From the IMG/VR virus record IMGVR_UViG_3300003323_000449, positions 1 to 30,689 of that record: 30,689 bases of DNA. One strand, given 5' to 3'. Position numbers and translations under genes: made by a program. The notes under the pieces are model-generated. The model worked only from the letters and a program-made list of their open reading frames with translations. It had not been told where the DNA came from and ran no database searches. Position 1 is the stretch's first letter; each line of letters starts with the position of its first letter. Shown here piece by piece: positions 9,439-26,308 of this stretch. The DNA comes from a virus.

Positions 9439-9453
9439 CAGGCTGTTTTTTTT
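9428..9453 (+). terminator. rho-independent terminator overlapping a stop codon
   Basis: AACAGTC (9428-9434) pairs with GGCTGTT (9441-9447, one T-G pair) around the loop TTAACA, followed by a T-run. The stop codon of the ELRIGN gene lies in the loop. It separates the packaging genes from the portal block, which has its own promoter. Confidence 0.8.
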
Positions 9454-9464
9454 ATTTTACACAC

Positions 9465-9500
9465 ACTCATCAAGTCATAATTACATCAGGGTTAAGTTTG
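9465..9500 (+). promoter_or_regulatory. phage promoter, copy 1 (18-bp element + TAAGTTTG)
   Basis: ACTCATCAAGTCATAATT (9465-9482) is followed after exactly 10 bp by TAAGTTTG (9493-9500), a Bacteroidota -7 box. The identical 18-mer with the same 10-bp spacing and TAAATTTG occurs at 25390-25425. The 18-mer covers the region from about -40 to -20, including the usual -33 site, but carries no TTTG there, so a phage-specific activator or sigma factor is likely. The start of transcription should fall near 9504, at the portal start codon. Confidence 0.7.
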
Positions 9501-9502
9501 TA

Positions 9503-11218
9503 GTGTATTTAATTAAACACATTGCATTGAGCCCGGCTGAGTTCATAAAAAAGAAAGTAAACCACGATAATCTCCTTAAAGCTAAACAACAGCATAAGGA
9601 CATTTCTTATTTGGTGCAATCGGAGCTACAGTCTGAGATAACAATAGAGTATCTTACGGCATGGGCAAACAGACAATATGCAACTGATAATAAATTTCTA
9701 AATTGGGTAAAATCCGTTTTCAAGACGGATAACTTCCTTTCTTTCTACAAGTATTTAAGACATCCACTTCCATCGGCAAAGATCGTGAACGAGGATGTAA
9801 AACCAAAACTAAGAAGAGTATTTCACGCTGAAGACTCTATTTTCAAATATACATTAAGGGGTAAGGTAGAATCATGCCATTCAGATCTCAATTCTAAGGA
9901 GTTTGATGAAGAGTTATTCAATGCTATCCTTTTTAATCACAACGCCATAGTTGCCCAGGATGTTAGCAGAACGGATGACGAATACCGAGAAGTGATTCCC
10001 ATTACTTCAATTGTTTCAGTTGACTGTGATAAGGACAAGATCAATAAGATCGCCTATAGCTCTTATTTAGATACCGAAAATGGAAAAATATATGGCTACA
10101 CATATCTGGATAAAGAACAGTATTTATTCTTTGATAGAGATTTTAACTTAGTCAGTCAGAGCGTGCATGATCTTGGAGAATGCCCGGCGGATTGGATTTC
10201 AAGTGAAAATATGTTCACTACAAATAATGTAGTTAAAAAGTCTATTTTCTCATATGTCATTGCTGATCTAGAAGAATATGTTTTTTTAAAGACGCTTCAA
10301 AGGATGACTGAGCCTAACGGGGCTATACCTGTTGCGGTACAATTAAATTCTAAGGAAACCAAAGCAGCAGGGGAATTAAAGAAAGGACTATCAAAAGAGC
10401 CAATGTCGCCAACTATTCTGGGCTCCAATTCAGATAAAGACATTTATCCGGTTCCTTCTTCCGAAAGTCAGCTACAAGCTGGTACTATCATAAAAGTAAC
10501 ACCTCCTTCAGATGCTGACGGAAATATCAACATGGATGTAGTACAGAACTACTTCCAATTCCATTATATGCCAATTGAGGCTTTGACTTATATTGATGAC
10601 AGGATAAAAGATATTGAAAATAGAATTAATTCGTCTTTAATCGGAGACTATAAAGAGCAAAATGAAGCTGCTAAAAACGAATTGCAGGTAGAAAAAGGTT
10701 ACAACGGCAAAGAAGATAGATTAAGATGGCTCTCAAACGAATTAAGTAGAATTAAGCAGCTTTCTGACTTTAAAACATTGGCCTTATTACATGGTAAGGA
10801 TAATGTAACTGTTGAAGTTTTTTTTGGAACTGATTTTTTCATTGAAACACTTGATGAGCTTTTTAATTCATTCGATAAAGCGCCGAACGCAATTGAACGT
10901 AGAAAGATTCTTAAAAGAATTTCTCAGAACAGAAATAAACATAATCTACAACAGGCAAAGAGAGATGTTATTCTCTATACACTTATCCCTTACATATCAG
11001 ATAAAGACTTTGAAACGGCGCTTAAAAGGGATATTGATCCGATAACTTTTGAATTCTATACGAGGTTTGAATACTGGATTTCTCTTTTTGAAGCAGAATA
11101 TGGTCAGATAGAAGAATTCTATGAAGGATTGGGAGATATGAAGGATAGTGAGAAGATAATAAGGATAAATAATTTAATCAAAAATATAATTCAAAATGAG
11201 AGTACAATTAAAGCTTAG
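9503..11218 (+). CDS. portal protein
   Basis: This 571-residue protein follows terminase and precedes scaffold and capsid, and its sequence suits a portal: mixed N-terminal alpha/beta region, a central wing-like part, and long amphipathic helices with QNEAAKNELQVEKGYNGKEDR typical of portal proteins of this group (the segment after YMPIEALTYIDDRIKDIENR). The portal forms the dodecameric ring through which DNA enters. The start is a GTG at 9503; no in-frame ATG lies upstream and conserved-looking sequence (IKHIALSPAEFIKKK) begins at once. The promoter box ends 2 nt before, implying leaderless translation, or a later TTG at 9527. Confidence 0.8.
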   Translation: MYLIKHIALSPAEFIKKKVNHDNLLKAKQQHKDISYLVQSELQSEITIEYLTAWANRQYATDNKFLNWVKSVFKTDNFLSFYKYLRHPLPSAKIVNEDVKPKLRRVFHAEDSIFKYTLRGKVESCHSDLNSKEFDEELFNAILFNHNAIVAQDVSRTDDEYREVIPITSIVSVDCDKDKINKIAYSSYLDTENGKIYGYTYLDKEQYLFFDRDFNLVSQSVHDLGECPADWISSENMFTTNNVVKKSIFSYVIADLEEYVFLKTLQRMTEPNGAIPVAVQLNSKETKAAGELKKGLSKEPMSPTILGSNSDKDIYPVPSSESQLQAGTIIKVTPPSDADGNINMDVVQNYFQFHYMPIEALTYIDDRIKDIENRINSSLIGDYKEQNEAAKNELQVEKGYNGKEDRLRWLSNELSRIKQLSDFKTLALLHGKDNVTVEVFFGTDFFIETLDELFNSFDKAPNAIERRKILKRISQNRNKHNLQQAKRDVILYTLIPYISDKDFETALKRDIDPITFEFYTRFEYWISLFEAEYGQIEEFYEGLGDMKDSEKIIRINNLIKNIIQNESTIKA

Positions 11219-11636
11219 GTTATACTACGGTAAGCAGATGTATGACTCTAAAGGAAATGTAGTAACGAGAAACGAAGGTGTTTCTGTTCAATATGATACA
11301 TTGGAGTACATGAACTTTATGAAGCATTTACTTGCTAACGGGGTATCTATGGTTAAGGTAGAAAAAGCCTTTAATCTCAATGAAGTTAACGACAATGAGT
11401 CTGTAGAATCTCCAAATAGATACAAAGAGATTGAAGATGTTTCAGAATACGAAAACGATATTAAAAAGTATCTGGAAATTCCTGAGAAAGAATTGACACC
11501 TGAGCAAAAAAGAATTAAAGATTTAGAAGAGAAGATTGATTCATTATTACAGAATCAGCCAGAACAGAAAGAGACTAAGCCGGGGTTATCTGTTGGAAGA
11601 AAAAAAACAACAGAATCACCAGAACCGAAAGAGTAA
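11196..11636 (+). CDS. hypothetical head-region protein (146 aa)
   Basis: It overlaps the end of the portal gene by 23 nt and precedes the scaffold gene. The N-terminal 45 residues (VQLKLRLYYGKQMYDSKGNV) suggest a small beta domain; the C-terminal half is acidic, lysine/glutamate-rich and probably helical or disordered (EKELTPEQKRIKDLEEKIDS), ending in a basic tail. No family is recognised. Position suggests a role in head assembly, for example as a minor scaffold or portal partner, which is inference only. Confidence 0.65.
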   Translation: MRVQLKLRLYYGKQMYDSKGNVVTRNEGVSVQYDTLEYMNFMKHLLANGVSMVKVEKAFNLNEVNDNESVESPNRYKEIEDVSEYENDIKKYLEIPEKELTPEQKRIKDLEEKIDSLLQNQPEQKETKPGLSVGRKKTTESPEPKE

Positions 11637-11671
11637 GATCAAAAATAAAACAATTTAATTCATAAAAGATT

Positions 11672-12553
11672 ATGGAAATATTATCAGAAGAAGTCATTAA
11701 AGAAACTGGATTAACACCTGAACAAGTATCAGCGTTAACCCCAAAACTTACAGACTATTTTTCAGATCAAAAAAAAGAATGGGATAAAAAAGCTAATGAT
11801 AACGCAGAAGGAATTCTGACAGGTGCTGCTAATTATCTTCAAGAAAAAACAGGCGTCAAAGTAGAACGCCAACAAGGAGAAAAGTTTGGTGATTATGTCG
11901 CGAGAATCTCTTCTACAGCTTTAGAAAGTAAATCTTCAGAGATAGAAAGATTGAAATCTGAATACCAGCAAAAAATAAAGGAGTTCAAAGGTGATGATGC
12001 AACTAAAGCTGAATTAGAAATAGCAAAGCAAAAACTTGATGCAGCTCAAAAACAATTAGCCAACTACGAAGAATTAAATGAAAAGGCAGGTAAATACGAA
12101 ACTGTATCAAAAGAGTTGTCAGAATTCAAAGTTATGGCAGCTTTTGGCAATGTTAAGCCAGCCTTCTCTAAAGAAGCTAATCAGTACGAAGTCAAGGCAA
12201 AATGGGATGATTTTCAGAAAAGAGTTCAGGAGAAATACAGTATTGAAATAGTTGACGGGGAGTATATTGCTGTAGATAAAGAAAACCATTATAAAAATAT
12301 AAAGCTTTCAGACCTGGTCAATAGTGATTCTGAATTGAAAAGTATCACGGGAGAAAGAGTTGTGCCTGGTTTGGGTTCAAAATCATTTAAAATCGAAGGA
12401 CTTAATGAAGACGTGCCAGAGGAAGCTAAAAAAGACACCGCTAAAAGAGCAGCCTTTATTGAGGCTCAATTAGCTAAAGAAGGGTTAACTGTTACGTCTC
12501 CGGAATATGCTAGACGATTCGGAGAGCTAAATAAGAAAATAAAAGAAAGTTAG
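11672..12553 (+). CDS. capsid scaffolding protein
   Basis: This is an almost wholly helical, charged protein of 293 residues, with a long coiled-coil segment (about residues 90-150, with ERLKSEYQQKIKEFKGD and IAKQKLDAAQKQLANYEELN), directly before the major capsid gene. These are the usual features of tailed-phage scaffolds, which guide capsid assembly and then leave. No protease motif is seen, so no separate maturation protease is identified in the head block. The C-terminus (EYARRFGELNKKIKES) is basic and may contact the capsid protein. Confidence 0.75.
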   Translation: MEILSEEVIKETGLTPEQVSALTPKLTDYFSDQKKEWDKKANDNAEGILTGAANYLQEKTGVKVERQQGEKFGDYVARISSTALESKSSEIERLKSEYQQKIKEFKGDDATKAELEIAKQKLDAAQKQLANYEELNEKAGKYETVSKELSEFKVMAAFGNVKPAFSKEANQYEVKAKWDDFQKRVQEKYSIEIVDGEYIAVDKENHYKNIKLSDLVNSDSELKSITGERVVPGLGSKSFKIEGLNEDVPEEAKKDTAKRAAFIEAQLAKEGLTVTSPEYARRFGELNKKIKES

Positions 12554-12600
12554 ACGCGAAAGACCGCAAAACGTATTAAATATTAATTAAAACAAAAAAA

Positions 12601-13671
12601 ATGAATTTAGATGCTACAATGTGGCTGGATTATCAAGACGTCAATTCGACTAATGAGAAGCGTTTTGCGCAACTAGGCGTTTTAGATCTTGTTAAGGACA
12701 GCACACAATTTACAGATTACATCTCGCCAACAGCGAGACAAAGATTAAGCGAATCTTCTTCTTTAAGAAATGTTAAGATTCCAGTGATTAAAGATCAACA
12801 GATCGAAGTTACATCAACTCCTGGGTTTGTCATTCCGGCCAACCAAGAAGTGTCTGATGAATACTCATTTGTTGCTTATGATGTTTTCTCAGGATTTAGA
12901 CATCATCCAGCATTGTACGGAAACAATACAGTAGATGCTGATTTTGCTCTAAGAGAAAAAATGAAGAACATCAGCTATGAAATGGGGAAAAGAGTTGAAT
13001 CTATCCTTGTAACCAATTTGGAAGCGAGAAAAACACAAAAACTTGATTACACAACTCAGGTGAGCCAGGGAGATGGAACATTCAACTTCAATACTACTAC
13101 TGATACACTAGAGGTAAGCAAAGCTGCTCAAAAGGAAACAATGTTCTTCAATATTGATACGCTTATGGGTGCTAACGAAGTAGGTGGAGGCTACAGTTAT
13201 GTTACATCTAGAGGTGGATTAGCTGTTCAAAAGTCAGAATTAGCTAAATACGGAATGGCTAACCAAAAAAACCTGCAGGCTCTTAATTTCCCTACAATGG
13301 AAAGACTGTATGAAACTGGGACTATCCTTCCAAATAGTTCTGTTTTCAACGGGTTTGCCGTAAGAGATGGAGCTATGGGTATTATTGAGAATTTCCCTTG
13401 GGATTTCAGAAATGGAACTGTCATTGACGGTAAGAAATGGTCTACATCAGGAATTGAATTACCGTTTACAAGAATGGTTGCTAATGTTTACGTTAATAAT
13501 GCTGCAACAGATGCTACCGCCATGGTTAGTGCTGGTAAAGATTCAAACCTTATCATGACTCACTTCCAGGAGATGGCAATATGGCATAGATTCTATGTTG
13601 TATACAGATATAACAGTGATCTGGCTAATAGAGTGAACGACATTGTAAAAATTACAGGATTAACAACTTAA
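12601..13671 (+). CDS. major capsid protein (HK97-type fold expected)
   Basis: This 356-residue protein lies immediately after the scaffold. The sequence begins MNLDATMWLDYQDVNSTNEK and has an E-loop-like region (IPVIKDQQIEVTSTPGFVIP), a long spine-type helix (ALREKMKNISYEMGKRVESI) and a C-terminal domain ending in HFQEMAIWHRFYVVYRYNSD. Order, length and composition match the major capsid protein of Bacteroidota siphoviruses. It is highly expressed in such phages; here a 47-nt AT-rich leader precedes it but no separate promoter box was found, so it is presumably read from the portal promoter. Confidence 0.85.
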   Translation: MNLDATMWLDYQDVNSTNEKRFAQLGVLDLVKDSTQFTDYISPTARQRLSESSSLRNVKIPVIKDQQIEVTSTPGFVIPANQEVSDEYSFVAYDVFSGFRHHPALYGNNTVDADFALREKMKNISYEMGKRVESILVTNLEARKTQKLDYTTQVSQGDGTFNFNTTTDTLEVSKAAQKETMFFNIDTLMGANEVGGGYSYVTSRGGLAVQKSELAKYGMANQKNLQALNFPTMERLYETGTILPNSSVFNGFAVRDGAMGIIENFPWDFRNGTVIDGKKWSTSGIELPFTRMVANVYVNNAATDATAMVSAGKDSNLIMTHFQEMAIWHRFYVVYRYNSDLANRVNDIVKITGLTT

Positions 13672-13681
13672 AAATAAGAAA

Positions 13682-14107
13682 ATGGATTATAATGTTTCAT
13701 ATTCAAATGGAGAAGTCGGGGAAAGTGAAAAGGTTTACGCAGTTGTTGTAACCGATAATACAACTCTTACGGCAAATGATTCAGGAAAAATCATTCTTGT
13801 AGGAACCGATGCAAAAACCATTACGCTTCCAGCTTCTAAAGCAGGATTAACTTTTACTTTTGTTAATATCGGTGCTGCTGGAAATAACATTCTAAAAGTT
13901 TCGCCTGTATCGACCGAGGGGATTTCTGGAACCATTACACTGGCAAGTTCAGTTGTTGTTCTTGATGGTACTGTAAACAAGGCGGCAATTAATACTAAAG
14001 CCACATCTGTAACGGGAGATAGTTTGACGATACTTGGAACTGGTCTAGCAGGAACAAAAGCTTGGGTAGTATTATCATCAACTGGTATTTGGGCTAGAGA
14101 AGCATAA
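13682..14107 (+). CDS. putative capsid decoration protein (141 aa)
   Basis: This small protein is rich in beta strands and in small residues (Gly, Ala, Thr, Ser). Segments such as KTITLPASKAGLTFTFVNIG and SGTITLASSVVVLDGTVNKA have the rhythm of beta-sandwich or beta-helix phage decoration and fibre domains. It begins 10 nt after the capsid stop, the usual place for head decoration proteins. The assignment is from position and composition; an alternative is a short head fibre. Confidence 0.5.
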   Translation: MDYNVSYSNGEVGESEKVYAVVVTDNTTLTANDSGKIILVGTDAKTITLPASKAGLTFTFVNIGAAGNNILKVSPVSTEGISGTITLASSVVVLDGTVNKAAINTKATSVTGDSLTILGTGLAGTKAWVVLSSTGIWAREA

Positions 14108-14120
14108 AAAATATAGTATC

Positions 14121-15248
14121 ATGAAGTTAGGATTTGCAGAGGAATACACGAGCAACGTAAAATTAGATGAAGAACTAATACTGAATTCAAAAACAGGAAT
14201 AGTTCTGAACAGTGGTATTCACCCATATATTACCGTAGATAATCTTCTGCATTTTCTGCCTTCAATTGATATTCAATTTAATCAATATGAATCAGGGAAA
14301 ACGTATAATAATTATTCCGAAAGCAGGAACAGGTCAGATGTCGTAATATTTAACGATAATCTGTATCAATGCCTTGTAGATGGAACGACTGGAGCGACAC
14401 CTGATACAAATTCAAACAAATGGTTGTTGACTAATAAAGAAAGTTTAGTCATTAAATCATGGATTGAAAAAGTTAAAGATAAGGCTGTATCTGATTTATA
14501 TCTATCTAAAAGACTTATTAATTCCCAATACATATATGAAAATGGAGAAAGTAACGTGACTTTGCCAAATGATTATTCAGGGTGGATTTTTGAATCGAAA
14601 GGAAGCGATTATATAACTATTACTCTTAATGAAATATCGGTACAGGCTACTACAAATAATCCAATAAGCTTATATGTTATAAATCAGGGAAAATTAGTTG
14701 ATACACTCACTTTGCATCCTAAAAATGGAGAATTATTTTTTGAGGAAATAAACTATTCTTTTTCAGGACCAGGTAGATGGATTTTTGCAATAGATAGTCG
14801 AGAGGTAAAATCAAACTTTGGATGGGTTGACGAACTTAAATATGATGGGTTTATCTGTTATCCGGTTACCGGAATAGGAAATAGTCCGGAAAGTTCAAAT
14901 TTCACTTACAACAATGTTTCTAATGGTCTTGGATTTAATGTGTCTGTGTCGTTAAACAGTGACAGTTACATAAAATATAATTTTCAAAATTTTACTTCTT
15001 ATGTGAAAGCTTGTTTCGAGTACATGACATTATTGATGTTCTCTGCAAATTCACATCAGCGAAGTAATCGCACGGAAAATGGTATCAACAAAGACATGCT
15101 TCTCGTGGAAACTAAAGATCTGGATGCTAATACTTCAGTAAAGAGGTATTTTCATGAACTTAAAGAAGCAAAAAAGGTAATCCAGAAATCGTTTGACACG
15201 CAGATAGGATATGAAGGGGGATTTGATGTTGAAGTAATATCTGTATAG
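14121..15248 (+). CDS. putative head-tail connector with inserted sugar-binding-like module
   Basis: The N-terminal 50 residues (ILNSKTGIVLNSGIHPYITV) and the C-terminal 45 (YFHELKEAKKVIQKSFDTQI) look like parts of an assembly or connector protein common after the capsid genes in Bacteroidota phages. In between, residues about 56-101 (YESGKTYNNYSESRNRSDVV..., FNDNLYQCLVDGTTGATPDT, then KW) follow the pattern of chitin-binding family 5/12 modules: a gap-free Y/W-rich strand set with LYQC and PDTNSxKW. The rest is beta-rich. It is virion-located by context; the sugar-binding reading is from pattern only. Confidence 0.5.
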   Translation: MKLGFAEEYTSNVKLDEELILNSKTGIVLNSGIHPYITVDNLLHFLPSIDIQFNQYESGKTYNNYSESRNRSDVVIFNDNLYQCLVDGTTGATPDTNSNKWLLTNKESLVIKSWIEKVKDKAVSDLYLSKRLINSQYIYENGESNVTLPNDYSGWIFESKGSDYITITLNEISVQATTNNPISLYVINQGKLVDTLTLHPKNGELFFEEINYSFSGPGRWIFAIDSREVKSNFGWVDELKYDGFICYPVTGIGNSPESSNFTYNNVSNGLGFNVSVSLNSDSYIKYNFQNFTSYVKACFEYMTLLMFSANSHQRSNRTENGINKDMLLVETKDLDANTSVKRYFHELKEAKKVIQKSFDTQIGYEGGFDVEVISV

Positions 15249-15250
15249 CA

Positions 15251-15778
15251 ATGATACACGAGAGAATTAATCCAATTGGTCTAGATCATTTAATTCATAA
15301 GGCGCAAAAAAAGATTTATGTGATCTTAAATAGCAAATGGGGTATTGACATTGAAGCGTATCCAAGATGCTATGTGATTGAAGATGATCAAGGGAAAAGA
15401 ACAGTCGAACATTATACATCCAACAATGAATACAGTGGTAATTTAATTGTTTCTGAAAGCGATAAGTTTTTCTTCACCACTGAAGATGATCAGGAAAGAG
15501 TAAACAATATCCAGTTTGAAACAAAAGTAAAACTATATTTCATTATTGATCTAAAATTCATTTATCCGGATGAACCTGGCAGATGTGATTCTAAAGTCTT
15601 GGCAGATATTGTAAATGCTATAGATAGAAGTGGAGGCTTCACAAATGAATACGCGATAGTAACTGACTACCAAAGTGTTTTTGAATCGTTTGAGTATAAC
15701 TTCGACAATATGCAGCCCTATTACTGTTTTCGCATAGACCTGAAAACGATTCCTTATTCAATTGATTCAATATGTTAA
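15251..15778 (+). CDS. putative head-tail joining / tail terminator protein (175 aa)
   Basis: It is located between the connector-like gene and the tail tube, where tail terminator or completion proteins usually are. The fold looks alpha/beta, with a middle strand VKLYFIIDLKFIYPDE followed by a helix (SKVLADIVNAI), which recalls small tail terminator proteins. No catalytic residues or membrane segments are visible. Starts 2 nt after the preceding stop. Assigned mainly by position. Confidence 0.5.
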   Translation: MIHERINPIGLDHLIHKAQKKIYVILNSKWGIDIEAYPRCYVIEDDQGKRTVEHYTSNNEYSGNLIVSESDKFFFTTEDDQERVNNIQFETKVKLYFIIDLKFIYPDEPGRCDSKVLADIVNAIDRSGGFTNEYAIVTDYQSVFESFEYNFDNMQPYYCFRIDLKTIPYSIDSIC

Positions 15779-15802
15779 AAAAATAAAATAAAAAAATATA
15801 AA

Positions 15803-16699
15803 ATGGCATTAACAATTAAAAAATGTAGCATATCAGATATGGTCGCCAGATTAGGGGGGCTGTATTGTGATGAAGAGCAGGTTTCCGGAATTATTTTAGC
15901 GGACCGTTCAGTCGCTTTTGATCCGGCAACTTTTACAAAGACAATCCTGGACGGATTTATCCAGCAGGATAAGATCATTGGGACTCTTAAGTACTTTTCT
16001 GCAGAAGACGCTGATGTCGATCCAACTTACACGGATTCTTCTACTGGTGAAAGTACCAAGCAAACGCTGGGAATCAAGAAGTGGAACTTTATGTTTAATA
16101 AAGGTAACTGCTTCCAAAACGAAATCAACAAGCTTGATAAAAGCGAAAGGTATTCAATTTTCATTGTTTATCAGGATGGTTCTATTCTGGGTCAGTTGAT
16201 GAAAGATGGAAAAGTTAAAGGGTTCAATGTTAAAACATTTGCAGGGATCAAGAAAGTTAAAACCGCAGCCGATGGAGGTGGTTCAACTTTAAGAGTAGAT
16301 CTTCTTCCGGATGCTATGAAATATTGGCAGGGACAATCCGCACTTGTTGAAAGTGACGAAATTGACTTTACTGAATTGATTCCCGTTGCAGGAGTTTCTA
16401 TCGACATTACATCAGCATTAGCTGCGGCGGCTACTTCAACAAAAGTGGTTGTTACAAACCAATGTGCAAATAGTAGGATAAATGGACTTACTACTGCTTC
16501 AAAGTGGAAAATGAGAAGAAATGGAACTTTAGAATCCATTACTGCAGTATCAGAAGTTAATGGCGAGTACACTTTCACTCATGCAGCATTAGTTGCTACC
16601 AATAAAATTTCATTTGAACTTAACGATGCAGGGTATCCCGTTTATGTTCTTGATACAGCATATTATGCTGGTAAGTCAGACACTGAAACAGTAGCATAA
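15803..16699 (+). CDS. putative major tail tube protein
   Basis: This 298-residue beta-rich protein begins MALTIKKCSISDMVARLGGL. Strands such as SIFIVYQDGSILGQLM and GFNVKTFAGIKKVK are followed by an Ig-like C-terminal part (about 195-298: VSIDITSALAAAATSTKVVV, YVLDTAYYAG). It is the only tube candidate, and no sheath gene follows, so the tail is non-contractile. It is preceded by an A-rich leader (15779-15802) typical of strong expression in this group. Its last base is the first of the next ATG (TAATG at 16697-16701). Confidence 0.7.
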   Translation: MALTIKKCSISDMVARLGGLYCDEEQVSGIILADRSVAFDPATFTKTILDGFIQQDKIIGTLKYFSAEDADVDPTYTDSSTGESTKQTLGIKKWNFMFNKGNCFQNEINKLDKSERYSIFIVYQDGSILGQLMKDGKVKGFNVKTFAGIKKVKTAADGGGSTLRVDLLPDAMKYWQGQSALVESDEIDFTELIPVAGVSIDITSALAAAATSTKVVVTNQCANSRINGLTTASKWKMRRNGTLESITAVSEVNGEYTFTHAALVATNKISFELNDAGYPVYVLDTAYYAGKSDTETVA

Positions 16700-16959
16700 T
16701 GTACAAAGTAGGACTATACACTATTTCACCTGAAAAGCCATTCTCTTCATTAGAGCAGGCGGTGGAATACATTCAGAAAATTTATCCGGAATTGGATAAA
16801 GAAAGCATTGAAAATTATTTAACACCTAAAATAGAAACCAATGGCAAGGATAAATCCGGAGACGTTTCTGAAGAGAATTCAGTTAGCAACCAAAATGACT
16901 CCGAAACTGGTTCAACAGGCGTTAAAAGAATCAAATCTACCTCAAATAAACCAGGATAA
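16699..16959 (+). CDS. hypothetical small tail-region protein (86 aa)
   Basis: The first 45 residues (MYKVGLYTISPEKPFSSLEQ..., then IQKIYPELDKESIENYLTP) form a folded-looking unit; the remaining 40 are polar and rich in Ser, Asn, Lys and Glu with no clear structure. This disordered tail is encoded in the same DNA as the N-terminus of the next gene (16841-16959, other frame). Starts by TAATG coupling to the tail tube gene. Function unknown; a tail-tube associated or tail assembly role is possible. Confidence 0.6.
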   Translation: MYKVGLYTISPEKPFSSLEQAVEYIQKIYPELDKESIENYLTPKIETNGKDKSGDVSEENSVSNQNDSETGSTGVKRIKSTSNKPG

Positions 16960-17338
16960 CCTTCTGCGAGGAAAAACGAGTGATGGGGGGCGAATGCCCC
17001 CTTACTCTAAAAAGTATCGAAGAGGCAATTTGTTCTATGCTGACTACAAAAACAGAATGAACCCTTTTAACAATCGTAGATGGGATTTAAAACACTGGTG
17101 GAATAAAGAATATGACGGTTTGTTTTATAAAAGCATAAAAGTAAAAGTAAATCTGAAAGATGTACAATTTTCCACAAATTATAGCCCACTATACATGCGA
17201 GGAATATATGCGATTATAAGTAAGTCAAGAATTATAGGTATTACCAAGAACCAAATGATTGATGTTCAGATAAAAAACAAGCCAAAATTAAATAGGCAAA
17301 TTTCAAGTATTATCGATGAAGGAAGATTAAAAAAATAA
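16841..17338 (+). CDS. conserved tail-completion-like protein (165 aa)
   Basis: The section NLLRGKTSDGGRMPPYSKKY followed later by GLFYKSIKVKV corresponds to a phage family often seen between tail tube and tape measure in Bacteroidota phages (LxxGxxxDGxxMPxYSxxY ... DFYKSI), possibly related to HK97 gp10-like tail completion proteins. The ATG at 16841 gives a 119-nt out-of-frame overlap with the preceding gene; a start at the ATG at 16895 (MTPKLVQQA) would halve it. The conserved part begins only near residue 35. Ends by TAATG overlap with the next gene. Confidence 0.7.
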   Translation: MARINPETFLKRIQLATKMTPKLVQQALKESNLPQINQDNLLRGKTSDGGRMPPYSKKYRRGNLFYADYKNRMNPFNNRRWDLKHWWNKEYDGLFYKSIKVKVNLKDVQFSTNYSPLYMRGIYAIISKSRIIGITKNQMIDVQIKNKPKLNRQISSIIDEGRLKK

Positions 17339-17592
17339 TGTGCAATTGTAGTAAGCCAATAACCAAAACAGAATGTTATCGTCTTAAAAAGTATGCAGAA
17401 GACGCTGAAGGTAGATTTTTTATATATCACATCTTTGATGATGAAAGAGGTTTAGATATAGCTCTTGTGCCTAAAGGAGAAATTCCAAACATAATTGCCT
17501 TAAAAAGAGGATTTATTGGTAAAGATGGATTGCCGGAGTGGTTTAATGTAAGAGAACATCCATGTTTATATGAAGAAACAATTAGAACATAA
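17338..17592 (+). CDS. hypothetical protein (84 aa)
   Basis: This is a small alpha/beta protein with an N-terminal Cys pair (CNCSKP) and a compact body (FFIYHIFDDERGLDIALVPK). The two cysteines and two later ones (C15, C78) do not make an evident zinc site. Starts on the last base of the preceding stop (TAATG) and overlaps the following gene by 23 nt. In siphoviruses the two genes before the tape measure are commonly tail assembly chaperones; this may be the first of them, though no slippery sequence is seen. Confidence 0.6.
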   Translation: MCNCSKPITKTECYRLKKYAEDAEGRFFIYHIFDDERGLDIALVPKGEIPNIIALKRGFIGKDGLPEWFNVREHPCLYEETIRT

Positions 17593-18244
17593 AATTAGAT
17601 TTTATCAAGACAGTAAAGATCTCCCATTTTGTAATTATAAAAGAATAGTTCAAACGGGAGATTTTTATTTTATGGTTAAAGGCTATGAGCCAGGCGGTGT
17701 AATAAGCCTAGATGCAAATTTACTTAAAGAAAAGTTTGAGGCCATAGAAGAAGACTATGCAAATTCTATGAATGTGAAAAACCATGATGTTATTATTTAT
17801 GGGCAGCACGCAATTTCAACAAACGAATTTAATAAATACAATATAATTCTTCAGTTAATAGAATTGACAATTAGAAGTACTGAGATAAGAGCGTATCATA
17901 AACTTCCGGTCTCTGAAGATCTAAATGCCGATACAATAAAGGATCTGCTAAAAGATTTTAAAGTTCAAAAAAGCGATGATTTATACAAACAAAGAGAATT
18001 TATCCAAAATAAGATCGAAAAGATTAAGAATGAACTTTTAAAACTTGATAGTCAAATAAAAAAAGAAGACGCTGAAAGAAAAGATTCAGAATTTGATATA
18101 GAAGAACAGTTTGTTAGTGTATGTCTTGGGTTAGAAATACCTGTTGATGATACAAAAATATCTCTTTACCAATACGGATTAATGGTTAAGGCACTGATAA
18201 AAAGGGTTGAGGAAATAAATAAGATGAATAGTCATGCCAGATAG
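17570..18244 (+). CDS. putative tail assembly chaperone-like protein (224 aa)
   Basis: It lies immediately upstream of, and overlaps by 11 nt, the tape measure gene, the standard place for tail assembly chaperones that coat the tape measure during tail building. The N-terminal half is alpha/beta; residues about 130-175 form a coiled coil (YKQREFIQNKIEKIKNELLK..., LDSQIKKEDAER) followed by a small helical domain (GLEIPVDDTKISLYQYGLMV). The overlap with the preceding gene is in the +1 frame; no classic -1 slippery heptamer is visible, so a frameshift fusion is not supported. Confidence 0.5.
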   Translation: MKKQLEHKIRFYQDSKDLPFCNYKRIVQTGDFYFMVKGYEPGGVISLDANLLKEKFEAIEEDYANSMNVKNHDVIIYGQHAISTNEFNKYNIILQLIELTIRSTEIRAYHKLPVSEDLNADTIKDLLKDFKVQKSDDLYKQREFIQNKIEKIKNELLKLDSQIKKEDAERKDSEFDIEEQFVSVCLGLEIPVDDTKISLYQYGLMVKALIKRVEEINKMNSHAR

Positions 18245-21200
18245 ATTAGCAATAATACAGGCTCAGGAGTCTATAAAAGAACTAAAGCAGATTGAAGCCA
18301 CAGGAAAGGATGTCAATAAGATGTTCAAAGAAATGGTTGCCAATACTAATAAAATTAACCAGGCTTTTAATTCCGGTAGGATTAGAGAGTATTCTGCTGC
18401 TATAAGAGAGCTTAGCCAGTACACTTCTCAATATACCGCAATGGAAAGACAATTGGCGGATGCCTTATCACGAACTGCTAGGTTAGAGCAGCAACAGGCA
18501 AGACTTCAAACCGAACAAGCCAGAACGAGAACCCAGCTTGCAGAAGCTAGAAGAGCAGAAAGTAGAGAGAGACAACAGGCGGCGAGAGAATCATCAGCTG
18601 AAGCGAGAGCAAACAGAGATGCTTCAAGTGCTCATGCTCAGTTGACTCGTCAAACCCGACAGGCAGTGCAAAGCGCTAGAGACTATGCGGCTGAAATATC
18701 AATGTTGAAAACTAAGCTTAGACAAGGAACAATTACTCAACAGGAATATAATGCCCAAATTAGAGGTCTTGAATCTAGTTCAAGAACTGCCAGACAAGAA
18801 GCTATCCGACTGCAAAGGGAACTTCGCGGAATTAATCAGGCAACACTACCATCTAACCAAAGAGGTGGAGCATTACAAGGTAGAGTAACCGACATACTGA
18901 AAGGAGTTGTGGGTGCTAGTGCTATTGGTAATGCAGCAAATACACTTGTAGGTATCGCTTCCGATGCCTATGATACTGTTAAGGCGCTGGATGCTCAAAA
19001 TTTAGCTGCTAAAAGTGTATTTGAAACTGAGACTCAGGTGGCATTTCAAAAAGAACATCTGGCTGAATTGACTGATAAATATGGATTAGAGTTAGTTTCC
19101 ACTACAGATGCTTATGTAAAGTATTCAGCAGCAGTAAAAGGTACATACTTAGAAGGTGAAAAAGCTCGTAAAATATTCGACAACTTTTCAGGTGCTTCTG
19201 CAAAATTAGGTTTATCTGCTGAACAATCTACAGGAATATTCAAGGCCCTGGAGCAAATGATTTCCAAGGGCAAAATCCAGGCTGAAGAATTACGTGGACA
19301 GCTGGGTGATAGAATGGCAGGTGCATTCAAATTGTTTGCTGATGGTATGGGAGTTTCCACGGCTGAATTAGACAAAATGTTGAAGGCAGGAACTGTTGTT
19401 GCTGATGATGTGCTTCCTCAGGTCGCTGAAAGACTTGCCAAAGTATATAATTTAGATACAGCTGGCAATATAGACACGATTGCAGCAGCACAAAACCGTC
19501 TAAAAAACGAATGGACTTCTTTCTTAAGTGAATTCACTGACAATAAAGACAATATGGATTTTCTGGCAGGCAGTATCGATGCCTTGTCATATGGAATGAA
19601 ATTTTTACTTGATATTCTGGTCAAAGATGGTTCAGCTGGAAAGGAAATCGTTACAGGATTGATCGATATTTTAGGCTCACTAATGGACGTTTTAGGAGCT
19701 GCAGCAGGTACAGCTGATACGACATCAACGAAAATGGAAAAGTTTCAGGCGACTTTACAATATGTAAGTGCCGATGTGAATATTCTTGCTTCTGCAATAA
19801 AATATCTGACAAGCGTTGTTTCTAACTTCTTCTCTACAATGTTTGAGGAAAACGGCTGGGATAAGTTTAACCAGAAGATGGAAAAAAGTGCAGATAGCCT
19901 AATAAATTCATATAAAAACTGGAATAAACTTACAAACGATGCTGACAGGTTATTCACAGGATTAACCCCTCAGGAGCGTGTAATTAGACAAAGGGAAGAA
20001 GAAACCAATAGATATAAAAAAGCATGGGATGATGCTAAAGCTTCCAAAGCTGCATATTTTAATTACCAGGGTAAATATTTCTCCACTGCAACTGGTAGAA
20101 ATACCGGTAAAAGTCTTGATAATTACATTGACAGAGGTGATAGGCTTGAAAAAAAGGCAAAAGTAAGTAAAACTGTTTTGGCTGATGATGGCAAACCAAC
20201 ACGACAAAGAGCTTCGTCTTTAACAGGAGGCCAAAAAGATTTTCTCATGATTTTGGAAGGCGAGAGAAATACTGAACTGGCAAATTTAGAACGTGACAGA
20301 CTTGCTTTAAAAATTGGTTATGAAGATTATCTTCAAGAAAAGCAAAACATTGCTATAAGGTATGATAAAAAGCTTCAAGACTACTTAAAAGGAGCGAATG
20401 CCAAAGAGATTAAATTGAAAGGCGATTCTTATAAAAAAGCTATTGATGCAGCTGTCCAATCTAATGAAAAGCTTTATAACGAAAGAGCCAAAAACTTAGA
20501 GACTAATTTCAATAAAGAAAAAAATATTATTGAGGGTAAGAATAGAGATATTCAAAAAATCCAAAACATCAGCGATGCTGACAGATTAAAACAGCAAATT
20601 GATCTGGACTCAGAACTTATACAGAAAACAGCCGTTTCCTACGAAAAAAGAATCCAATTGGCTGCCAGTATGGGACAAAGGGTTTTGGAGTTAGAGCGTG
20701 ACAGAGACGAAGAAATTGGAAAACTTGAAGATCAAAGGCTTCAACGTATGGCAGCTATTCCTGAAGCTGTCAGAACTGATATAGAATATCAAAACCAGAT
20801 TCTTACTGCAAACAAAGATATTTCATATGAAAAACAAAAACAGTTAATCCTAACCAATAAAAAGCTAAATGCAGAAGAAAGAGCTTATCAGTTAGCTGTT
20901 CTGGATAAACAAAACGAGATCAAAACTACTGAGCAGGAAATTGAAAAACAAACAAAGCTTAGAGATTCAATAACTAGCCGCCTTCTTAATGAAAAGGCAA
21001 TTGGTTTACCGGGAACCCCAACGAAGGAAGATATAAAATTACTTGCTGAATATGGTGCCGAAATAGAAAGGCTAACAAATGTAAATATTCAGAATAAAAA
21101 AGATCTTGATCTTCTAAACTTTGATAAGATTGCAAAAGGTTTTGAGCCCTTTGTCAATTTGATTTCCAGCGGGCTAAATGATCTGGGATTGAATCGGGTT

Positions 21201-22184
21201 TCTGATCAGTTTACAAAAATGTATCAGAAAATTCTGGATGAAGGAAAAGACTTTTCTTTATCGAATAAGGAAATATTTGAAGCAGCAGGAGCTGTAATTT
21301 CTGATTTCGCCCAAATGTTTACCAATGCTCAAAAAGAAAAAACTATTGCCGCACTTGATGAACAACTTAAATATTCGCAGAATGCAACAGAACAGGAATT
21401 AGGTTTTATCAATAGCCGTTTAGAAGCTTTAAACAATCTTGAAGATCTTACAGCTGAGCAAATTCAAGAACGTAACCGCCTTGAAGATGAAGCAAGGGTT
21501 TACCAGGACCAGCAGAGACAGCGAGAAAAATTAATTGAAACTCAGAAGGCCCGTGCAGAACAAAAGGCTGCAGCACAGCAAGCATTGATAAATGGTGCTT
21601 TGGCCGCTACAATGACACTCGCTCAAATGGGATTCATTGCCGGGGCAATTCCGGCCGCCCTCGCACTTGGTTTCGGTATCGCTCAATCTATTGCGATTAT
21701 GTCTAAAGATCCGGTTCCTAAATACTGGATGGGACGAACTGGAGGTAAAGCAGAATATGCAATTACTCAGGATAGAGGTCGTGAGATTATCGCTGGTGAT
21801 GATGGTCGTATTAAATCGTTAGGATCTGATGGAGGCTCAAAAATGACATGGCTTGATGAAGGAGATACAGTTTATACAGCAGATGAAACAAAGCGAATTT
21901 TAAAAACTATGGGCCCTTCTGCTAAAATAGGAAGCAAAGTTTTTCAAAGCATAGCCCGGGAAAGCATGTTAGCCCCGCAAATTTCTGTAGTGAATAATTA
22001 CCGGGATAATTCAGATGCTATTGCTGAAAAATTAGGAAAAAGATTTGATCAATCTTTGGCACGTTATGACAAACCTGCAATCATAAAAAGAAGTGGATTC
22101 ATCTATTTATACAGAGGTGCAAACTATGCTGAAGAGATAGGATCATACGATTTAGAAACCGGAAAAGAAACATTTTACTCATGA
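18234..22184 (+). CDS. tape measure protein
   Basis: This is by far the longest gene of the virion set, with 1316 residues. The N-terminal 215 are a charged coiled coil rich in Arg, Gln and Ala (RTARLEQQQARLQTEQARTR). Residues 353-361 (LRGQLGDRM) are in the tape measure domain, with GVSTAELDKMLKAGTVVADD following, a strongly conserved feature. Long Lys/Glu/Gln coiled coils fill about 640-1115, and a glycine/alanine-rich hydrophobic region (about 1117-1158, with MGFIAGAIPAALALGFGIAQ) may insert in the membrane during DNA ejection. At roughly 0.15 nm per residue, tape measures of this length imply a tail near 200 nm. Confidence 0.95.
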   Translation: MPDRLAIIQAQESIKELKQIEATGKDVNKMFKEMVANTNKINQAFNSGRIREYSAAIRELSQYTSQYTAMERQLADALSRTARLEQQQARLQTEQARTRTQLAEARRAESRERQQAARESSAEARANRDASSAHAQLTRQTRQAVQSARDYAAEISMLKTKLRQGTITQQEYNAQIRGLESSSRTARQEAIRLQRELRGINQATLPSNQRGGALQGRVTDILKGVVGASAIGNAANTLVGIASDAYDTVKALDAQNLAAKSVFETETQVAFQKEHLAELTDKYGLELVSTTDAYVKYSAAVKGTYLEGEKARKIFDNFSGASAKLGLSAEQSTGIFKALEQMISKGKIQAEELRGQLGDRMAGAFKLFADGMGVSTAELDKMLKAGTVVADDVLPQVAERLAKVYNLDTAGNIDTIAAAQNRLKNEWTSFLSEFTDNKDNMDFLAGSIDALSYGMKFLLDILVKDGSAGKEIVTGLIDILGSLMDVLGAAAGTADTTSTKMEKFQATLQYVSADVNILASAIKYLTSVVSNFFSTMFEENGWDKFNQKMEKSADSLINSYKNWNKLTNDADRLFTGLTPQERVIRQREEETNRYKKAWDDAKASKAAYFNYQGKYFSTATGRNTGKSLDNYIDRGDRLEKKAKVSKTVLADDGKPTRQRASSLTGGQKDFLMILEGERNTELANLERDRLALKIGYEDYLQEKQNIAIRYDKKLQDYLKGANAKEIKLKGDSYKKAIDAAVQSNEKLYNERAKNLETNFNKEKNIIEGKNRDIQKIQNISDADRLKQQIDLDSELIQKTAVSYEKRIQLAASMGQRVLELERDRDEEIGKLEDQRLQRMAAIPEAVRTDIEYQNQILTANKDISYEKQKQLILTNKKLNAEERAYQLAVLDKQNEIKTTEQEIEKQTKLRDSITSRLLNEKAIGLPGTPTKEDIKLLAEYGAEIERLTNVNIQNKKDLDLLNFDKIAKGFEPFVNLISSGLNDLGLNRVSDQFTKMYQKILDEGKDFSLSNKEIFEAAGAVISDFAQMFTNAQKEKTIAALDEQLKYSQNATEQELGFINSRLEALNNLEDLTAEQIQERNRLEDEARVYQDQQRQREKLIETQKARAEQKAAAQQALINGALAATMTLAQMGFIAGAIPAALALGFGIAQSIAIMSKDPVPKYWMGRTGGKAEYAITQDRGREIIAGDDGRIKSLGSDGGSKMTWLDEGDTVYTADETKRILKTMGPSAKIGSKVFQSIARESMLAPQISVVNNYRDNSDAIAEKLGKRFDQSLARYDKPAIIKRSGFIYLYRGANYAEEIGSYDLETGKETFYS

Positions 22185-25100
22185 TACCAATTAACCATAT
22201 AATAAACGAAAACGGAGTTAAAAATATTTTCAAATTCATAGTACCCTCTGGACTTTTTCAGGGGGAATATGTCATAAATAAACCGGATGGATGGGATGAT
22301 GTAGACTCAGTTGTAAATATTGATGATGTTCTGCTATATGTAAAAGACTTTATCATCGGTGAAAATACAAAACTGAAATTCTATCAATACAGCAATAAAA
22401 TAGCTTATGATGTTTTGTTTAATGTATATCAAGAACAAGCTGGAGACGGCCGGATAAAATTTAAATGGTTAGCAGTTAAAGATAGTGTAGAGTATGATTT
22501 ACTGAAAGATAACTTTGAGGTAAACTTGAATAAGTACAAAAATACAGTTGATAATAACACTTTCGTTATTGACGTAGAGCTGGTCAAAAGTGAAGAGCAA
22601 AACAAGCTTTTCAACCGGGATGATGTTACCATTGATTTATTCGCTGAAAAAGATTTGGATGAAAATCCAATTAATCCTGTAGGGACTTTTGTTATGGGAT
22701 ATAAAAAAGGAGCTGCAAAGCAATCTAACTTTTATTCATGGGATATTTCACAGGAAATATTTAATAGTACACCAAGATCTGATCATTTTTTTTCGTTTCA
22801 TAGGACAGATGAATATCAGTTTGGAACAAATACGAATGAATATTGCGGAATCAAAAATGTTATCGGGTTTCCTCAATGGACGAGAATAGATCAAGGTCCT
22901 TTTGTTAGCACAAATATTACCTTAAAATCTATCAAAATTGAAATTAGTAATATGCAAGTGATTTTCGGACGTGAAAACAATATTCCTGTAACTCCATTTG
23001 TTAGTTTATGCGCTGTGATTTCGGGTCCAGGATTTTTTTTCACTCAAAAATTGTTTGAAGCTGTTGAAGATCCTACACACCATACATCAGAAATTAAAAT
23101 TGACAATCAGACATTCATTTTAAATATAAATGATTCTTCTAATATTTCACCCGGACAAAATTTGAGTTTTTTATTCCTTACAGATGATCCGACGGATAAA
23201 TTTACAGTGGTTTCGCTAAAAACTAATACAAGTATAGAGATAACTACAAACATGGAATCTCCGATTGTTAGAACTAACGGAATTCGATTGATTGATGCCG
23301 TGAAACAGGTTGTAAAAAGCTATACGGATTCTGGTCTGAGTGTTATAAGTAATTATTTAGGATTAGGAGGAATTTATTATAATACCTCGATTTCTACTGG
23401 TGTTTACTTGCGAGGGTTACCAACTGTTTATACAGCAGGCCAGAAAATTAAAACTTCTTTCAAATCTCTAATTACTGAAGGTGCTGCAAAATTGTTGGTT
23501 TTAGGTTTTGACGTCTTAAACAATAACGTAGTAGTTGAAGATTTAGGGTATTTTTTCAAAGATGTACAGGTGTTTGATCTATCTAATAAAATATACTTGC
23601 AGGAAGGATATAGCATGGAAAACGATAAGGATGTCATTTTCAATACTTTGTTGTTTGGCTCGAAAAAGTTTTCAAAAAACGTTAAAGATGACATACAGAA
23701 TTTTATAACATCTGCCGAATATTCAACGCCAATAGTTAGTACTAAAAACAAATTTGACAAACAAACTGAATTGATCATTGATGAATATAAAATACAGGAG
23801 CTGATTGAGGATAAGAGTTCATCTACCAATGATAATGATGATGATCTAGTAATGATTGATTTGGTAAATGAAAATGATTATTGGGATTCTGGTGTTTTTG
23901 AAAATTGTATACATTCAGTTAAAGATAGCAAGTTGTTATTGACTTGTACTACAACTGCATTTGATACAACCTTGATGGAAGTTGGATCTTCTGTTCAAAT
24001 AACTGAAGGGTTGAATTCCGGAACTTGGACAATACTTAATATAAACGGTCCAGAATTAACGCTAAATAAAACATCGGGAATTGAACAAGGAGCAAACGAC
24101 ACTCCTATTAGATATTCTATACCCTCACTTATAAAAAATAGGTCAATAAACGATGGATTTACGGAACCTGCGTTTGTAAGAAATCCGGAAACTTCTACAA
24201 ATTCCCGTCACAACCCAAAATACCATATGGCAAGATGGTTTCAATGGTTTGGAAGCGGGCTAAGGAAAAAGCAAAATGGAGAACTTATCAAAGTGACAAA
24301 TTACAAAAACAATGATAAGGCTCAAATGCGAGCAAACTCATCTGATCTCGTAAATGAATTACCAGGTTTAATCACAGTTGGCGCAGATGAAAACCTAGGG
24401 AGAATGAGAGCGTATAAGCAGCCGTTCTTTACCGGTGAAAAAATTGAAATTTCTTACACCAATGTTACATTTAAAGAATTTATTGCTTTGTATGAAAATT
24501 GGCGTTATGGAATTTCAGGAGATAGAGCAAATAGCCGTGGCTATGTCACATTAAACACTCCATTGGGAATTTATGATGCATATCCATTCGGTGACGGTGC
24601 ATTTTCCCATGACAGGAAAGATAATATTCTAAGCTTCAAAGGAAAAATAAAAGGAAGAGCGGCTGCAAGTCCGGTTCTGTTGTCAGTTGTGCAGGATAAT
24701 AAGAATACAATTACTCTACATTGGGATTATGGAAATGAATATATCGGCCCTACAATTGACGTTCAGTATTCTTTAGATGGTATTACCTGGATAACATTAA
24801 GGCAGTTTTTCAACGTAAAAGAAGGGGTTATTATTGATGATTCTCTTTCTGATATTCTTACCGGAACAGATGTCTTTTTTAGAATTATTGCAAATACCGC
24901 TGATTTTGTGAATAAAATTTCAAATACAATCACAGTAAATTGGAAATTTAACCCATACGTAATAATTGACCGTAATAAATCCGAAAATACAGATTGTGGG
25001 TACAGCAGAATCGTTTTTGACTTAAGAGGAAAAGCAGATTTTGAAATAGAATACACTTATCAGTTCATGCCAAGCGGTGGCAAACTGTGGGCAACCAATT

Positions 25101-25381
25101 TAAACGGAACCGGCGGAAATTTAGTCGTTGAAACTGATTATGGTCAAACTTCTGTAGATGGTGTAGAAACTAGAAATATAAATGTGGATGGAAATGAAGT
25201 TAGATTATTTATAGACCTTTTTAATTCGGACAAAACAGAAACACTACTTCCGTTGAATTGTACAGTTGGAGACTACCAGTATATCTGTTATGCTAATGTC
25301 ATTATAAAGTTTACTGATACTATTACAAATACAAGTCAATCTTTTGAATTAAATGCGGAAACAATTAAGAAATATATTTAG
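22181..25381 (+). CDS. large tail-tip / baseplate hub protein (1066 aa)
   Basis: It follows the tape measure with an ATGA overlap, where distal tail and hub genes lie. This beta-rich protein has no catalytic motif. The region about 826-920 (NTITLHWDYGNEYIG, IDVQYSLDGITWITL, VFFRIIANTADFVN) has the strand pattern of a fibronectin type III domain, a common adhesive module in phage tail tips. A cluster of tryptophans and arginines (HNPKYHMARWFQWFGSGL, about 672-690) precedes it. Its size suggests a fusion of distal tail and tail-associated functions; peptidoglycan-lysing residues are not seen. The exact role is inferred from position. Confidence 0.75.
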   Translation: MIPINHIINENGVKNIFKFIVPSGLFQGEYVINKPDGWDDVDSVVNIDDVLLYVKDFIIGENTKLKFYQYSNKIAYDVLFNVYQEQAGDGRIKFKWLAVKDSVEYDLLKDNFEVNLNKYKNTVDNNTFVIDVELVKSEEQNKLFNRDDVTIDLFAEKDLDENPINPVGTFVMGYKKGAAKQSNFYSWDISQEIFNSTPRSDHFFSFHRTDEYQFGTNTNEYCGIKNVIGFPQWTRIDQGPFVSTNITLKSIKIEISNMQVIFGRENNIPVTPFVSLCAVISGPGFFFTQKLFEAVEDPTHHTSEIKIDNQTFILNINDSSNISPGQNLSFLFLTDDPTDKFTVVSLKTNTSIEITTNMESPIVRTNGIRLIDAVKQVVKSYTDSGLSVISNYLGLGGIYYNTSISTGVYLRGLPTVYTAGQKIKTSFKSLITEGAAKLLVLGFDVLNNNVVVEDLGYFFKDVQVFDLSNKIYLQEGYSMENDKDVIFNTLLFGSKKFSKNVKDDIQNFITSAEYSTPIVSTKNKFDKQTELIIDEYKIQELIEDKSSSTNDNDDDLVMIDLVNENDYWDSGVFENCIHSVKDSKLLLTCTTTAFDTTLMEVGSSVQITEGLNSGTWTILNINGPELTLNKTSGIEQGANDTPIRYSIPSLIKNRSINDGFTEPAFVRNPETSTNSRHNPKYHMARWFQWFGSGLRKKQNGELIKVTNYKNNDKAQMRANSSDLVNELPGLITVGADENLGRMRAYKQPFFTGEKIEISYTNVTFKEFIALYENWRYGISGDRANSRGYVTLNTPLGIYDAYPFGDGAFSHDRKDNILSFKGKIKGRAAASPVLLSVVQDNKNTITLHWDYGNEYIGPTIDVQYSLDGITWITLRQFFNVKEGVIIDDSLSDILTGTDVFFRIIANTADFVNKISNTITVNWKFNPYVIIDRNKSENTDCGYSRIVFDLRGKADFEIEYTYQFMPSGGKLWATNLNGTGGNLVVETDYGQTSVDGVETRNINVDGNEVRLFIDLFNSDKTETLLPLNCTVGDYQYICYANVIIKFTDTITNTSQSFELNAETIKKYI

Positions 25382-25389
25382 CATAATTT

Positions 25390-25425
25390 ACTCATCAAGT
25401 CATAATTCGCTCATTAATAAATTTG
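25390..25425 (+). promoter_or_regulatory. phage promoter, copy 2 (18-bp element + TAAATTTG)
   Basis: ACTCATCAAGTCATAATT (25390-25407), then exactly 10 bp, then TAAATTTG (25418-25425). Element and spacing are identical to the copy before the portal gene. The box ends 4 nt before the ATG at 25430, so the mRNA would begin at or next to the start codon. It opens a second virion transcript for baseplate, fibre and lysis genes. Confidence 0.7.
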
Positions 25426-25429
25426 TATC

Positions 25430-26308
25430 ATGCATAAATTCTGGTATCATAGCCCGGTAAGATTCTACAGAACAATTGAAGAGTTAGAAGACATGACCAA
25501 TCCGCAAAACGCACAGTATTACGGGCACGTAAAACCTTACCCTTTAGAAGTAAATTCCTATCATAGATACTTGATACCAAATTACCAAAATGAAATTTCA
25601 GATCAGGATTTAAGCCTATACTTGGTAGGTGATGATGAAGTTAAAATTCCTTGTGAATTTGGTATTAGTGATAGTAAGTTATACCGAATAACTTTTATTT
25701 ATTCTGAAGAAATAGAAGGACGTTTTGAAATAAGAGACTCTGCTGGATTAGCTATTTTTTATTCTAGCTGTGTTCAATTTCATGATAGCACAGATAAAGA
25801 AGGGAGGAAACATATAAGAATTGCAACGCAATGCAACTACAATAGAAATCTATTCTCTTATGCTGACGGACAACATGATTGGATGATAACAACTCTTCCA
25901 GCTTATTGTATGGGAGAATTTGATATTGATGAAGATATTAAATCAGGGAGAATAGGAAGTTTAGGTTCAACGGAAATAAATTCTGCGTGGACAGAAGAAA
26001 ACGTTAAATATACAATCATGGCTGAAGGAGATAACAACATTTTGTCCTTTATAGCTGTTCACTCTACAAATCAAGATTTATACATTGACGGAACAAAACG
26101 TACCAGAAAGGAAAAACCAGAAACAACTGACTTTACAAATGAAATTACAATGAAGTTTTCCAATGTGAAAGATGACAACGGACTGAATATCATTTTTAAT
26201 GAAGATGCTGTATTCTCAGATGTGTTTAAACAGGCCTTAGCTAATGGAGATTTGACAGCGGTTTATGTATATAATTCTAACTATATAATACCTACAGAAG
26301 ATGTCTGA
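25430..26308 (+). CDS. putative baseplate / tail protein (292 aa)
   Basis: The first strand (MHKFWYHSPVRFYRTIEELE) and later parts (NSYHRYLIPNYQNEISDQDL, RIATQCNYNRNLFSYADG) resemble upper baseplate proteins that precede receptor-binding proteins in Bacteroidota siphoviruses; the fold is beta-rich with few helices. The conserved-looking sequence begins at the very first residues, supporting the ATG at 25430 despite the near absence of a leader. It overlaps the fibre gene by 8 nt. Probably links the tail tip to the fibre. Confidence 0.6.
   Translation: MHKFWYHSPVRFYRTIEELEDMTNPQNAQYYGHVKPYPLEVNSYHRYLIPNYQNEISDQDLSLYLVGDDEVKIPCEFGISDSKLYRITFIYSEEIEGRFEIRDSAGLAIFYSSCVQFHDSTDKEGRKHIRIATQCNYNRNLFSYADGQHDWMITTLPAYCMGEFDIDEDIKSGRIGSLGSTEINSAWTEENVKYTIMAEGDNNILSFIAVHSTNQDLYIDGTKRTRKEKPETTDFTNEITMKFSNVKDDNGLNIIFNEDAVFSDVFKQALANGDLTAVYVYNSNYIIPTEDV

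Follow-up and report, generated by a model that had tools for sequence, protein, structure and literature searches.

In prophages of the Chryseobacterium type, an HNH homing endonuclease that has lost its active site has probably been turned into a dedicated activator of the late genes. Its asymmetric target would lead to a fast-diverging promoter element, and the resulting switch would be private to a phage, exchangeable, and moving between phages with unrelated heads. This proposal is built on four observations, namely paired sites, their conserved position, their covariation with a single gene, and the loss of active-site residues in the product of that gene.

A repeated element at the start of two late blocks

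The window, i.e. the whole 30,689-nt stretch of DNA analysed, is a fragment of 30.7 kb; most records of related prophages are 39-50 kb long. The sequence-only reading of this DNA had reported that ACTCATCAAGTCATAATT occurs exactly twice, each time 10 bp upstream of TAARTTTG and in differing surroundings, and that no TTTG is present at the normal -33 spacing. All of this was verified. Both copies lie on the + strand (see table), no third match with up to 3 mismatches exists on either strand anywhere in the window, so that the scattered copies that would have refuted the reading are absent from it, and the two 10-bp spacers are unlike in sequence. By chance 0.06 matches are expected, and two matches were obtained in none of 100 shuffles.

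The first copy had been placed at the head of a block opening with the portal gene. Its position stands, but the portal start itself had to be corrected: judging from the reading frame, translation probably begins at TTG 9527 and not at GTG 9503, since in the relative L003, with a portal at 96% identity, one additional base between the two shifts the frame. Next to this promoter, the terminator-like hairpin (-8 kcal/mol, z -6.1; 1 found, 0.1 expected) would shield it from transcription arriving from upstream.

Features of the window; promoter and regulator assignments are predictions.
Feature	Position	Strand	Remark
Late-promoter element, copy 1	9465..9482	+	about -40 to -23 from predicted start; exact repeat, paired element in 16 prophages
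-7 box TAAGTTTG, portal-side promoter (promoter 1)	9493..9500	+	G at -9
Late-promoter element, copy 2	25390..25407	+	exact repeat
-7 box TAAATTTG, promoter 2	25418..25425	+	predicted start is the A of the ATG at 25430
Intrinsic-terminator-like hairpin and T tract	9428..9457	+	directly 5' of promoter 1
Portal gene, head of late block 1	9527..11218	+	ORF open from GTG 9503
fib, first gene of late block 2	25430..26308	+	292 aa; no Pfam or PHROG match
GDSL-hydrolase fibre-like gene	from 26301		after fib
GH19 endolysin-like gene	from 29525		late block 2, after fib
Large terminase	7277..8701	+	between regulator gene and promoter 1
Candidate late regulator	6010..6588	+	192 aa; NUMOD4, HNH (predicted inactive) and C-terminal HTH, I-HmuI architecture

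The paired sites in related prophages

Terminase and portal searches yielded five relatives, G1 to G5 (IMG/VR 2903172618, 2816332188, 2585428095, 2585428060 and 2588254257), and a portal search of genome records found portals 96% and 70% identical in Chryseobacterium genomes. Briefly, every TAnnTTTG on the gene strand was taken in an unsupervised scan, and the 45 nt upstream were compared for all pairs of sites in a fixed register. As TAnnTTTG is the condition of the scan, the -7 box in the relatives is not an independent result. The window has 8 such sites on its + strand; the two under study score 18 for common upstream sequence, against 6 for the next pair and a shuffled maximum of 9. In the window phage and in G1 to G5, the best pair always consisted of the portal-side site and the site preceding the fib homologue (scores of 14-22, next pair 6-9). 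The window phage and G1 have one common element, G4 and G5 another, and G2 and G3 each have their own. Such divergence accounts for the absence of any match in a scan of IMG/VR with the exact 18-mer; the search of related phages that the sequence-only reading had recommended thus recovers the pair through TAnnTTTG sites, with element letters specific to each phage.

The pair was found at the same two block starts, where the two copies had been said to stand, in 16 distinct Weeksellaceae (Chryseobacterium-group) prophages. It is the top pair in 14 of them; for the other two, H52 and H135, the raw list has higher scores for duplications at other places of the flank, and the pair comes out on top once local duplications are excluded. 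Scores range from 14 to 27 and shuffled maxima from 9 to 14, each below the score observed for that phage. The element is about 22 bp long, and its mean identity is 0.90 within a phage vs 0.54 between phages; for the flank (-60 to -35), identity was 0.31 within a phage and, for one and the same location, 0.34 between phages (13-phage set). Five prophages with an unrelated terminase (22-30% identity) and no portal match still keep the two-site arrangement. With the same site scan, no such pair was detected in the distant relatives G7-G18.

The presence of only two copies in the window might be explained by chance, or by a repeat derived from recombination, without any regulatory role. This is very improbable, however, as it is contradicted by the 16-prophage scan, in which positions, register and within-phage identity are the same with different letters, and as shuffles do not reproduce it.

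The phage-specific consensus is confined to late-block promoters in 13 of the 16 records. The exceptions are H81, with a third perfect copy, and G1 and H52, whose weak extra matches, like a partial third match in G3, look like chance. The third copy of H81 (L125, base 7458 of the region) matches at 24/24 positions, has an imperfect -7 box, TACTTTTC, and precedes packaging genes (VRR-NUC-like, ParB-like and terminase). In this prophage, a reverse-strand cassette parts the candidate regulator gene from the terminase, splitting the usual layout.

In Flavobacterium johnsoniae, the -7 element occupies -12 to -5, transcription starts 4-5 nt downstream, G is avoided at -10/-9, and the -33 TTTG motif is itself weak (PMC6847099). 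On this ruler, the element spans about -44 to -23. None of the 32 sites of the 16 prophages has a TTTG 17-25 nt from the -7 box, which extends the absence noted for the window pair, and 8 of the 32 have a G at -10/-9. Aligned in register, the 32 sites yield roughly TAYACtC..CAAnACcAnAAAA as their consensus, with peaks at C -17 (0.97) and A -13 (0.94), counted from the T of the box. A dyad test revealed no symmetry in the elements, as expected for the long targets of elongated phage homing endonucleases (PMC3943268).

Two further observations concern promoter 2. Its downstream ATG falls exactly on the predicted +1 in 8 of the 16 phages (window: 25418-25432), so that the block-2 mRNA is predicted to be leaderless in these, a minority type in F. 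johnsoniae. In G3 (39017), H81 (29617, L125/L126 region) and K665 (32879), the -7 box lies between the arms of an inverted repeat of the ATTATGCAC...GTGCATAAT type, which is possibly an operator for another regulator.

The candidate regulator and its covariation with the element

Upstream of the terminase and outside the packaging and structural set, a single gene is present in all six of the window phage and G1 to G5, and in the window this is the candidate regulator gene. A census by blastp of ORFs of at least 45 aa in 13 phages, which a shorter or more diverged universal gene could escape, gave 8 families present in 13/13: the regulator, the only non-structural one, the large terminase, and 6 structural or tail families. 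The earlier inference of a phage activator or sigma factor is in this way supported by a specific candidate gene, whose divergence tracks that of the element. The sigma factor was dropped for want of any supporting gene, since the -7 box belongs to the main sigma factor of the host, and since the sole universal non-structural gene is not sigma-like.

The regulator meets the criterion of a NUMOD4-HNH-HTH fold by Pfam, hmmsearch and Foldseek. Pfam recognises NUMOD4 (6.9e-8) and HNH_3 only below threshold; a profile of 17 regulator sequences matches I-HmuI (1U3E, 3.5e-18), and its C-terminal HTH matches the repeat protein 8VD6; for an AlphaFold model (mean pLDDT 79.6), I-HmuI is the one PDB entry matched significantly (E 1.9e-7). 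It fails the criterion of an intact HNH active site. In 17/17 copies, other residues stand at the positions of I-HmuI D74, N96 and H56, and in 16/17 at that of H75. D74, H75 and N96 are the metal-binding residues and the general-base His, and the product is thus predicted, from its residues alone, to be a catalytically dead HNH nuclease. In three HNH relatives that are intact, H56, H75 and N96 are retained, and position 74 is an N. One of them is a NUMOD4-HNH homing endonuclease encoded in the window itself (3636-4217), 1.8 kb from the inactivated one.

Among 321 host-family genomes searched, nine have strong regulator homologs (E <1e-59), five of them without a homologous portal. Seven new prophages from these genomes (H22, H81, H133, H98, H135, H84 and H52) all have the pair at the same two positions. 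H133, H98, H135, H84 and H52 were first picked by their regulator; H98, H84, H52 and a copy of H133 were later found again via fib. No pair was found in H261 and H299, which have weak regulator homologs. In the Winogradskyella prophage H24 (L137), the HNH protein encoded upstream of the terminase was considered as a counterpart and rejected, as its active site is kept and the paired element is a different one; no dead-HNH regulator was found in this prophage. The pair specific to H24, at 7328 and 24027 (L137/L138), consists of TTTAATTTAGTCTAAATAAGAAT upstream of TATATTTG.

For a search independent of the regulator, IMG/VR was queried with fib alone, giving 21 contigs. The regulator is encoded by 8 of the 17 that are not G2-G5, hence by 12/21 with these four included, and the pair is present in 12/12; this element is found in 0/9 of the contigs without regulator. 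Regulator-bearing contigs are at least 56% identical in fib, vs 46-52% for the regulator-less ones, and since these are two separate clades, the contrast counts as a single event or a handful rather than 21. In eight of the nine regulator-less contigs, the -7 box is instead preceded by a palindrome that recurs, within one phage, at two or three late positions. It is GTTTCATAnTATGAAAC in K673, K675, K677 and K678, GGTTATATAAATTATAACC in K674 and K676 (where the second copy has diverged), a ATGTATnnnnTACAT type in K680, and GTTAGAnnnnTCTAAC in K672. K679 has only one short palindrome. Across the K672-K680 records (L189-L212), palindromes lie upstream of fib, portal and terminase genes, e.g. GTTTCATATTATGAAAC at 23609, 27139 and 43373 of K673. 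In a single-site shuffle test, dyad symmetry was marginal for K673-K678 (P 0.03-0.05) and did not reach significance in K672, K679 and K680, so that repetition is the stronger argument. These palindromic elements look like a second class of late promoters, with a different, probably dimeric, regulator. Perhaps another family of late promoters is represented in G6 (L069-L071), where three TAnnTTTG sites (5724, 43846 and 46419) have a common upstream sequence of the GTTTAATnAAA type.

Among the 16 distinct phages, element identity is correlated with regulator identity (Mantel r=0.378, P=0.0008), and the regulator tracks the element better than seven packaging and tail proteins do. The test was not significant for the terminase, the tape-measure and other tail genes. 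For fib, a P of 0.026 becomes 0.096 given the regulator, and the regulator remains at P=0.004 given fib. Individual pairs illustrate this: G2 and K664 are 92% identical in regulator and 95% in element, with terminases at 25%; the corresponding values for G5 and H98 are 59%, 89% and 25%; the window phage and H22, at 95% in tail and 87% in fib, have only 41% in regulator and 55% in element. The Mantel r is moderate, and no single regulator domain stands out in the test.

Another protein, from host or phage, might read the element, the HNH-like gene being a passenger or a packaging factor. Indeed, an active HNH nuclease beside the terminase acts in HK97 cos cleavage, and nuclease genes are found clustered around terminases (PMC10448857). 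Here, however, the catalytic residues are lost, the two copies stand some 16 kb apart before genes, unlike a cos site, and the element differs between close phages, a change that a common host factor would not call for. Together with the covariation above, this makes such a passenger quite unlikely.

The reading that we favour, and hold to be likely, is that the late genes are activated by a domesticated homing endonuclease that is catalytically dead, with the element as its target at late promoters. The two copies would be the upstream elements of two such promoters, each with the host -7 box and, in place of the -33 TTTG, the asymmetric, phage-specific element. The regulator would bind it as an elongated monomer and, lying over -33, recruit the host RNA polymerase, the portal-head-tail and fibre-lysis blocks being turned on together. 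Protein and element would evolve as a pair, so that each phage would have a private late-gene switch. Binding, initiation of transcription at these sites, its late timing, and activation as opposed to repression are all inferred, in the absence of RNA, binding or reporter data.

Repression by the same protein from the same position is the main rival and cannot be excluded. The late genes would then be silenced in the lysogen or during the early phase of infection, in the manner of I-TevI, a repressor of its own late promoter (PMC2988022), and a protein bound over the -33 region could block the polymerase there. We nevertheless consider this unlikely: with no -33 TTTG at 32/32 sites and the disfavoured G at -10/-9 in 8/32, the promoters look weak unaided, the regulator gene lies on the late strand before the terminase, outside any lysogeny module, and no copy of the element precedes it in the window within 3 mismatches, as would an operator of the I-TevI autorepressor type.

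Comparison with known systems

No study of late-gene control or late promoters in these phages was found in the open-access literature, and the fib gene was not found in INPHARED phages, hence no published transcription data could be used. Activation by the dead HNH protein, if true, would mean that a selfish nuclease was converted into a transcription switch inside phages. The analysis provides a specific regulator candidate, its target, and 16 natural matched pairs with diverging specificity, which could reveal how NUMOD4 and HTH domains read DNA, and be usable as orthogonal promoter-activator pairs for Bacteroidota.

Activator-dependent late promoters are known in phages, e.g. those controlled by Mu C and P2 Ogr. 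The arrangement described here resembles them by the common upstream element at several late promoters, the host -7/-10 box with a degenerate -35/-33, and a candidate regulator gene of the phage that precedes the late block. It differs in that the element is asymmetric and phage-specific, and that the candidate regulator is homing-endonuclease-like; to our knowledge, it is unrelated to the Mu C and P2 Ogr activators. Compared with the primary-sigma promoter of Bacteroidota (-33 TTTG, -7 TAnnTTTG), both window sites have the -7 box, but the -33 TTTG is missing, a quarter of the sites have a G at -10/-9, and a phage-specific element occupies the -33 region.

With I-HmuI and HNH homing endonucleases, the regulator has in common the NUMOD4-HNH-HTH architecture over its whole length and a long, non-palindromic target, inferred in its case. 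Unlike I-HmuI, it has had its metal-binding residues and, in all but one copy, its general-base His replaced, and its gene has a conserved position and is paired with promoter elements in place of a homing site. Finally, I-TevI of phage T4 is likewise a DNA binder of the homing-endonuclease type at a late promoter, binding being inferred in our case; I-TevI, however, is a GIY-YIG enzyme that is active and targets its own promoter, whereas here the enzyme is predicted to be inactive and two structural blocks carry the element.
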